Assembly: GCA_021734645.1 (NCBI GenBank)
Contig: JAIPIQ010000004.1
Coordinates: 1 to 39,581, forward strand
Direction: 5' to 3'
Source: Fidelibacterota bacterium
GTDB lineage: Bacteria > Verrucomicrobiota > Kiritimatiellia > JAIPIQ01
Length of the DNA stretch: 39,581 bases
Below the pieces are notes generated by a model. That model worked only from the letters and a program-made list of their open reading frames with translations. It did no database searches and had not been told where the DNA came from. The position numbers and the translations under genes are program-made. Below, piece after piece: positions 37,585 through 39,343 of this stretch. Position 1 is the first letter of the stretch. Every line of letters begins with the position of its first letter.

Positions 37585-38349
37585 CTACGCATCCGGGCCG
37601 TTACTTGGCGCCCGGGGCGGCATCGGCTCGACGGGCTCTTCGCCGAGGAGTCGGGCCAGGGTCGGTTCCATGGCCTCAGCCCAGAGGCGATAGCCTTCGA
37701 CCGTCAGGTGGACGCCGTCTGCGCGCAGCCCGCGATAGCCCTGCCCCGCCTCGAAAGGAAAACACTCGCGCAGGTCAAGAAAATGGATTGTCTGGCCATC
37801 GGCCCATTCTTTCAACTGCTGATTGACTTCCCGGAGCTTCCTGCCGCGCCCGTCTTCAAGCTGATTGCCGCGCGGGAAGATGCCCAGCAGCAAAATCGTT
37901 GTTTCCGGGAAAAGCGCTTTCGTCTTTTCCACGACCGCTTTCACGCCGGCAACGATTTCTGCCTGCGGTGAGCCGGAGTTGTTGGTGCCGATCATGATGA
38001 CGGCGAGCCGGGGCGCAAGCCCCTGCGTTGTCAGGTGATCCAACCGCCACAAAACATGCTGCGTCCGGTCGCCGCCAATGCCGAGATTGATCGCGTGGCG
38101 ATGGCCGTAGTAATGTGTCCAGATGTTCCGCGGGCGATGTTCCCAGCCCTGCGTGATTGAGTCGCCGATAAACAGCACCGCCGGCGCGGTCCCCGCCGCC
38201 ACAAGCCGTTCGTTCAACAAGGCGTTGCGCTGGTACCACTCATCCCCTTCCCTGGGCACGGGCGTCGTGGAAACAAATTCCGCCGACTGCGCGCGGAAAC
38301 AAATCGCCTGGACGCAGACGAAGCACAACAGGGCCATCCGGTAATTCAT
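37585..38349 (-). CDS. Secreted SGNH/GDSL-family hydrolase
   Basis: The 254-residue product has a signal peptide (MALLCFVCVQAICFRAQSA). The SGNH blocks are Ser in FIGDSITQGW (block I), Gly in NLGIGGDRTQHVLWRL (block II), Asn in VIMIGTNNSG (block III), and the Asp-His pair in LRADGVHLTVEGYRLWAE (block V). Such enzymes are esterases; acetyl-xylan or related carbohydrate esterase activity would suit the sugar-rich context but cannot be shown. ATG 38349 is chosen for AAGGA 8 bases upstream and the signal peptide. The frame stays open further upstream only because it runs through the 31-bp repeats. The gene lies downstream of the inositol monophosphatase on the same strand. Confidence 0.87.
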   Translation of the reverse strand: MNYRMALLCFVCVQAICFRAQSAEFVSTTPVPREGDEWYQRNALLNERLVAAGTAPAVLFIGDSITQGWEHRPRNIWTHYYGHRHAINLGIGGDRTQHVLWRLDHLTTQGLAPRLAVIMIGTNNSGSPQAEIVAGVKAVVEKTKALFPETTILLLGIFPRGNQLEDGRGRKLREVNQQLKEWADGQTIHFLDLRECFPFEAGQGYRGLRADGVHLTVEGYRLWAEAMEPTLARLLGEEPVEPMPPRAPSNGPDA

Positions 38350-38408: not shown

Positions 38409-38552
38409 CATTCCAGCCGCTGTAACGGACGCGCTTTTCCATTCCAGCCGCTGTAATGGGCACGTTTTTCCATTCCAGCCGCTGTAATGGGCACCACATT
38501 TCGTTCCAGCGGCTGTACTGCGCGCCGTTTTTCGTTCCAGCGGCTGGAATGG
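38409..38552. repeat. Five 31-bp tandem units, each with a 19-bp dyad
   Basis: Units begin at 38409, 38440, 38471, 38502 and 38533 with an exact 31-base period. Each starts with a near-palindrome such as CATTCCAGCCGCTGTAATG; the last unit has TTCCAGC-G-GCTGGAA, which is fully symmetric. Most units end in a T-rich spacer. The first three units are most alike; the last two share CGTTCCAGCGGCTG. The period equals about three helical turns, placing all dyads on one face of the DNA. The array fills the gap between the monophosphatase stop and the SGNH gene. Confidence 0.85.
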
Positions 38553-38557
38553 ATACC

Positions 38558-39343
38558 TCAGGAGCCAAAGGGATCCATGAGGGCGCGCAGGGCGGGAAAG
38601 ACGGGGGGGGTGGCGGCCATGAACTGGAGGCATTCGCCGCCGAAGCGGGCCAGGACTTCGGTCTGGGCGCCGGCCTGGCGGGCGATGAGCTGAGCGGCGG
38701 CGATATCCCAATGATAGATGCGGGTCTCGAAATAGCCGTCCACACGGCCCCGGGCCACATGGCAGATATCCAGCGCGGCGGCGCCCATCATGCGCACCTT
38801 GCGCGCGTTCCGGCACAGCGTCTCCATCCGGCGGAAGCCATTGGGATCCGCCTCGATATCCTTGGAATGTCCCGTGCAGATCAGGGCCTGGGACAGGGAA
38901 CGGGTTTCGGCGGGCTTGATGGCCGCGCCATTGCACAAGGCCGGGCGCTCTTGAACCGCCGTGTATAAATCATCCAACTCCGGCGCATACACCACCCCCA
39001 CGACCGCCGCGCCCCGGTACTCCAACGCTACCGACGTACACCACTGGGGCAACCCATGATGGAAGTTGACCGTGCCGTCAATGGGATCTATGACCCACCG
39101 GTAGGGCGAACGGCTCGCCCGCGACCCCTCCTCGCCCAAAATCCCGTGCGCCGGATACCGCCGCGCCACCACCGCCGCCGCCCGCCGCTGGCACTCCCGG
39201 TCCAGCACCAGCTTGACGTCATGCGCATGTACGGCGTCCGTCTCGCCCCGCCGGTGCCGGTTGCGCAGGGCGTGCCGCCCCGCCGCCCGAGCCACCTCGA
39301 CCGCCCCGTCCAACAAATCATCCAGCGCAATGCCCTTTTTCAT
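38558..39343 (-). CDS. suhB: Inositol monophosphatase family protein
   Basis: The 261-residue product has the metal-binding motifs of the family: GILGEEGS near 67-74, the signature WVIDPIDGTVNFHHGLP near 83-99, and YHWDIAAAQLIARQAGA near 213-229. These enzymes use Mg to remove phosphate from inositol-1-phosphate and related compounds. In some bacteria SuhB also helps rRNA synthesis. ATG 39343 has no clear ribosome site. It is divergent from the Fur-family gene. Downstream it runs straight into the 31-bp repeat array, whose last unit touches its stop codon. Confidence 0.9.
   Translation of the reverse strand: MKKGIALDDLLDGAVEVARAAGRHALRNRHRRGETDAVHAHDVKLVLDRECQRRAAAVVARRYPAHGILGEEGSRASRSPYRWVIDPIDGTVNFHHGLPQWCTSVALEYRGAAVVGVVYAPELDDLYTAVQERPALCNGAAIKPAETRSLSQALICTGHSKDIEADPNGFRRMETLCRNARKVRMMGAAALDICHVARGRVDGYFETRIYHWDIAAAQLIARQAGAQTEVLARFGGECLQFMAATPPVFPALRALMDPFGS

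Follow-up and report, generated by a model that had tools for sequence, protein, structure and literature searches.

Dispersed extragenic palindromes are usually read as RNA hairpins or as selfish DNA, and the box pairs of NrdR exemplify helically phased tandem operators. REP units, which are 20–40 bp long, occupy convergent and unidirectional gaps between genes, often <20 bp from a 3′ end. Flanking of a RAYT gene is a trait of the GTAG REPs, whereas the CGTC REPs have no dedicated transposase (PMC3733652). DNA-bound proteins can stop RNA polymerase, a process called roadblocking, and it has been suggested that they contribute in this way to setting the limits of transcription units (PMC10310618).

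The array described here lies in the window, i.e., the whole stretch of 39,581 nucleotides that was analyzed, which is derived from a MAG (G000; 2.6 Mb, 224 contigs, 69% complete). With moderate confidence, we regard it as a member of a lineage-specific, dispersed, REP-like family of gene 3′ ends that consists of phased sites for a dimeric protein and perhaps acts as a transcription boundary. The family occupies the niche of the REPs but bears the marks of a double-stranded site, i.e., arms that do not covary, a strict helical step and spacers that have diverged. If confirmed, it would provide a clean bacterial example of gene ends that are marked by arrays of protein. A first-pass annotation, made from the sequence alone, had stated that no known element came to mind. 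Consistently, Rfam gave a chance match only and no convincing family, and neither such an element nor its core word was found in the literature searched.

Dyad units and their spacing

In the window, five 19-bp dyads start at steps of exactly 31 bp between positions 38409 and 38533 (Table 1), as the first-pass annotation had claimed, and Tandem Repeats Finder reports the array at 38409–38552 with a 31-bp period and a score of 139. When up to three mismatches are allowed, TTCCAGCSGCTGKAA has 22 matches in the window against 3.85 expected, and a number of at least 22 was reached in 0 of 100 shuffles. The description of each unit as a near-palindrome with a T-rich spacer stands with two refinements. 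Most dyads are imperfect at the symmetric pair 5/15, and three of the four window spacers close with a run of four or five T (with C or T as the last base), while spacer 3 ends in ATTT.

Table 1. Features of the window array and its flanking genes, and examples of a repeat in another genome of the same class (G001)
Feature	Position	Strand	Sequence or remark
Dyad unit 1	38409..38427	+	CATTCCAGCCGCTGTAACG
Spacer 1	38428..38439	+	GACGCGCTTTTC; T-tract at 3′ end
Dyad unit 2	38440..38458	+	CATTCCAGCCGCTGTAATG
Spacer 2	38459..38470	+	GGCACGTTTTTC; with T-tract
Dyad unit 3	38471..38489	+	CATTCCAGCCGCTGTAATG
Spacer 3	38490..38501	+	GGCACCACATTT
Dyad unit 4	38502..38520	+	CGTTCCAGCGGCTGTACTG
Spacer 4	38521..38532	+	CGCGCCGTTTTT; with T-tract
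Dyad unit 5	38533..38551	+	CGTTCCAGCGGCTGGAATG; positions 5/15 without mismatch
Inositol monophosphatase family gene	38558..39343	-	Pfam PF00459, E 1.3e-51; window array 3′ of gene end
SGNH/GDSL hydrolase gene	37585..38349	-	Pfam PF13472, E 3.1e-29; start 59 bp past window array
Repeat examples in G001	C1:16257; C9:8451; others L119, L127, L159-L168		GGAATCGCCGCATGGGGATGCGG

A search of the source genome for dyads at 31-bp steps revealed at least 36 arrays. A first set of 32 arrays with 99 units was aligned in register from stretches around word matches, and those on contigs C146, C158, C182 and C74 were added by BLAST with a consensus array. The step from unit to unit is 31 bp in 63 of 67 cases and 32 bp in the remaining 4, with no other steps, which upholds the fixed, helically phased period that had been proposed; the argument that coding pressure does not explain it is likewise supported. 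A conserved dyad that recurs at a constant helical step, as found here, characterizes phased protein-binding arrays. The arrays of the first set contain 1–5 units (three in 13 arrays, four in 9, a single one in 2), arranged head-to-tail with few exceptions. Outside the arrays, words scoring 14–16 of 19 occur at the frequency seen in shuffled DNA, whereas words scoring at least 17 of 19 were not found; thus, the units are nearly all-or-none.

The consensus unit reads CRTTMCAGC-S-GCTGKAAYG, with CRTTMCAGC as the half-site, followed by 12 bases that end in a T-tract and then C or T. Dyad columns 3, 4, 6, 7, 8, 12, 13 and 14 (TT, CAG and the matching CTG) are invariant in the 99 word-found units, an invariance that is partly conditioned by the use of core words and of a cut-off on the score to gather these units; column 2 is always A or G, and column 5 is always A or C. 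The BLAST-found array on C74 breaks the invariant columns and has a decayed look. The dyad holds 32.6 bits of information, as compared to 0.15–0.34 bits in each of spacer columns 2, 4, 5 and 7. A T-tract is present in 51 of 67 inner spacers versus 1 of 31 left outer flanks.

In CRISPR, which is accompanied by cas genes, variable spacers likewise alternate with repeats that are conserved and partly palindromic. However, the spacers of CRISPR are unique and at least about 20 bp long, whereas those of the dyad arrays measure 12–13 bp and have the T-tract in common, and the arrays comprise 2–5 units at dozens of loci. The box pairs of NrdR resemble them in having dyads at about three helical turns, as for cooperative dimers, but the dyad arrays differ from these in sequence, in having 2–5 sites at at least 36 loci, and in lying at gene ends and not at the promoters of one pathway.

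Spacers are slightly more alike within arrays than between arrays (similarity 0.464 vs. 0.393, p = 0.005), suggesting that some units were born by tandem duplication. This is what neutral tandem satellite DNA would show as well, but the strong divergence of the spacers beside stable dyads and spacing, and the lack of a spectrum of dyad decay, make such an origin highly improbable. The first-pass annotation had expected a neutral satellite to vary freely among strains in unit number and spacing, with no conserved dyad; between the loci of this one genome, the number of units varies from 1 to 5 while spacing and dyad are constant. In the array pair C133/C145, a count by hand gave seven differences in the dyads, five of which are in the variable columns 2, 5, 10 and 18. 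Given these changes, the all-or-none units and the diverged spacers, we favor the view that the dyad is under constraint, with recent spread as the alternative within the one strain covered.

Genomic location and the probable form in which the dyad is read

The arrays lie at the 3′ ends of genes and avoid divergent intergenic regions, a location that the first-pass annotation had not foreseen. Genes around the arrays were called with a simple codon-usage caller for protein genes only. Among 32 arrays, 8 lie in convergent gaps and 1 in a divergent gap (divergent share 1/32 vs. 20/65 of the background gaps, counted from 80 bp upward; p = 0.001). In tandem gaps, 18 arrays point in one direction and 5 in the other (p = 0.011). 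In the preferred orientation, the array follows the stop codon of the upstream gene at a median distance of 21 bp, and the unit closest to the stop codon often has the symmetric TTAC...GTAA form, i.e., with A-T at 5/15, which is found in 17 of 30 last units versus 4 of 30 first units. In the window, dyad unit 5 and the stop codon of the inositol monophosphatase gene lie 6 bp apart. The array on C182 (L187, 2576–2740) starts ~11 bp past the end of a tRNA-Gln gene; it was entered with a gap of 301 bp, since the caller ignores tRNA genes. On C27 (L088, 3744–4970), a ribD reading frame traverses a four-unit array, which lies within its last codons, and the product would thereby gain a repeat-encoded C-terminal tail.

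The neighbors of the arrays include genes for inositol monophosphatase, homocysteine methyltransferase, GH88, ZnuA, an S1-domain protein, Fe hydrogenase, RibD, DAHP synthase, a redoxin and a DeoR regulator. These have no function in common and, therefore, the family is not a regulon. Phased dyads do look like tandem operators, and many arrays in tandem gaps, including that in the window, also stand 15–116 bp ahead of a start codon, which would suit a promoter-acting regulator. However, eight arrays lie between convergent genes, where there is no promoter to control. Together with the avoidance of divergent gaps and the unrelated neighbors, the location at 3′ ends does not fit operators of this kind, which we consider very improbable. 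The outer half of the dyad resembles parS (GTTNCA), the site near the origin that is bound by ParB, but the gene-end location does not suggest a centromere site of this kind.

Nor do the arrays resemble intrinsic terminators, in which a GC-rich stem is directly followed by a U-tract. The T-tract starts ~7 bases past the dyad and, in most arrays, its strand is not the one that the nearest gene would require, and no terminator-like site was found inside the window array. As ~36 arrays could serve a small share of the genes at most, the family is not a general terminator. A candidate terminator formed by a spacer hairpin and a T-run (AACGG-nnn-CCGTT-TTT) was rejected, because its frequency did not exceed that in permutations (p = 0.17).

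The 3′ location and the polarity relative to the upstream gene would also be consistent with an RNA element, i.e., a transcribed array that folds in 3′ UTRs and there serves in mRNA protection or processing, or as the target of an RNA-binding protein. Both strands indeed fold far better than shuffles, with z of -5 to -8, but strong folding is expected of any palindrome. A dyad that is kept for a hairpin should show covariation between its arms, and none is seen. The pairs at positions 2/18 are GC in 42, GT in 26, AC in 19 and AT in 10 cases, which makes the arms independent (Fisher p = 0.82), and G-U is not preferred over A-C on either strand. Positions 5/15 form a C.T mismatch and are thus unpaired in 64 of 99 units. 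Given these arms, and with no Rfam family to match, an RNA element appears quite improbable. Instead, the non-covarying arms, the common mismatch and the helical step point to double-stranded DNA that would be read by a two-fold symmetric protein. The same lack of covariation favors the protein binding proposed in the first-pass annotation over an RNA structure.

We infer that an element comprises, as a rule, 2–5 near-palindromic sites in a row for a two-fold symmetric DNA-binding protein. Since 31, sometimes 32, bp equal three helical turns, bound dimers would be aligned on one face of the DNA, where cooperative binding is plausible, and the T-tract between the units may set the bend or the stiffness of the linker. 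Because the rows come after the stop codon or the tRNA end of unrelated genes, a bound row would most likely mark the end of a transcription unit, either as a roadblock to read-through or an insulator, or as an anchor of local topology; this boundary role is speculative. Phased roadblock arrays that lie at the ends of genes are not known to us as a natural family in bacteria. In its most specific form, the proposal would be that rows of a dedicated dimeric protein, phased at three turns, cap chosen gene and tRNA 3′ ends and, with no need of an RNA hairpin, block read-through or insulate against it. We consider this form unlikely. The proposed mode of action is shared with LacI-type roadblocks, where a bound protein downstream of a gene curbs read-through (PMC10310618).

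Occurrence in other genomes

A GTDB scan, in which exact two-unit words were required and which diverged cousins would therefore escape, gave seven matches, and the 31-bp step was present in one of these alone, L074. At periods of 33–35, the two-unit words were absent from 84,980 GTDB species genomes. There was no match in IMG/VR viral contigs, and the 345 further genomes of the same class gave none either. L074 (JAIPIM010000297.1) is assigned to a 3.4-Mb Candidatus Paceibacterota MAG. However, contig C14 of the source genome begins with the same 108 bases with which L074 ends, and the linked repeats described below are also common to both. A second species was rejected on the basis of the 108-base identity, and L074 probably belongs to this organism or to a very close one and was misbinned. 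The best reading of these searches is that the family is lineage-specific, known from one MAG.

A second family with a 31-bp step was not found in samples of five relatives; these yielded only a repeat of G001 that ends in GTAG and has a step of 30 bp. In this genome, GGAATCGCCGCATGGGGATGCGG is present in at least 61 copies, frequently paired at that step, which lie inside an inverted-repeat frame of GTAGGAGCC...GGCTCCTAC. In contrast to the dyad arrays, both the repeat and the spacer were alike in the two copies read.

Linked repeats and RAYT genes

Several arrays adjoin other dispersed repeats and thus lie in mosaics, like REPs. The inverted repeat CGTCGTCC...GGACGACG precedes the arrays in C8, C133, C145, C155 and L074, and another dispersed inverted repeat, GACGCCCGAC...GTCGGGCGTC, is located upstream of those in C84, C142, C221 and C19. 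On C17, other copies of the CGTCGTCC...GGACGACG repeat stop where the array would begin, and one copy ends in a lone half-dyad, CGTTCCAGC. At least two pairs of arrays appear to be duplicates, i.e., C133/C145, which have similar spacers and a similar upstream repeat, and C221/C19.

The source genome contains two Y1_Tnp genes, on C155 and C168. That on C155 (L104, ~720–1600) is a RAYT-like Y1 transposase gene with CGCGGGGCTCCGCACCCGC-type inverted repeats on both sides, and together these likely constitute a REP system separate from the dyad arrays; the nearest array is ~2.6 kb away. No dyad or array was found near the Y1_Tnp gene of C168 in the stretch examined.

The main rival to a boundary formed by rows of protein is a selfish repeat of the REP/BIME kind, spread by a transposase (RAYT or other) and tolerated at 3′ ends, in which the dyads would be conserved through recent spread or through the sequence need of the transposase. 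Like the GTAG and CGTC superfamilies, the dyads are short, dispersed, many-copy extragenic palindromes near the 3′ ends of upstream genes, in tandem or convergent gaps and intermixed with other repeats, and their niche is close to that of REPs (PMC3733652). The Y1_Tnp genes, the adjoining hairpin repeats and the many-copy repeat of G001 argue in the same direction. Also the copied pairs, the decayed array on C74 and the half-dyad at a repeat end on C17 count against rows of protein. However, the dyad unit of 19 bp is just under the length of REPs and carries no GTAG or CGTC tag, its edges in the aligned arrays being TTTTC followed by CRTT and AAYG followed by G. The compensating stem changes of REPs are not seen either, and the RAYT gene of C155 is flanked by a different repeat. 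Furthermore, the dyads stand in strict 31-bp head-to-tail rows, almost without singletons, and their spacers have diverged while the dyads have not. On this evidence, a selfish repeat seems somewhat unlikely.

Another repeat that is dispersed between genes, ~370 bp in length and with the inverted repeat CGTCGTCGTCC...GGACGACGACG in its interior, was observed in L074 (3714–4086). It is also found on C17, C50, C126, C150, C8 and C155 of the source genome, sometimes with a dyad array directly after it.
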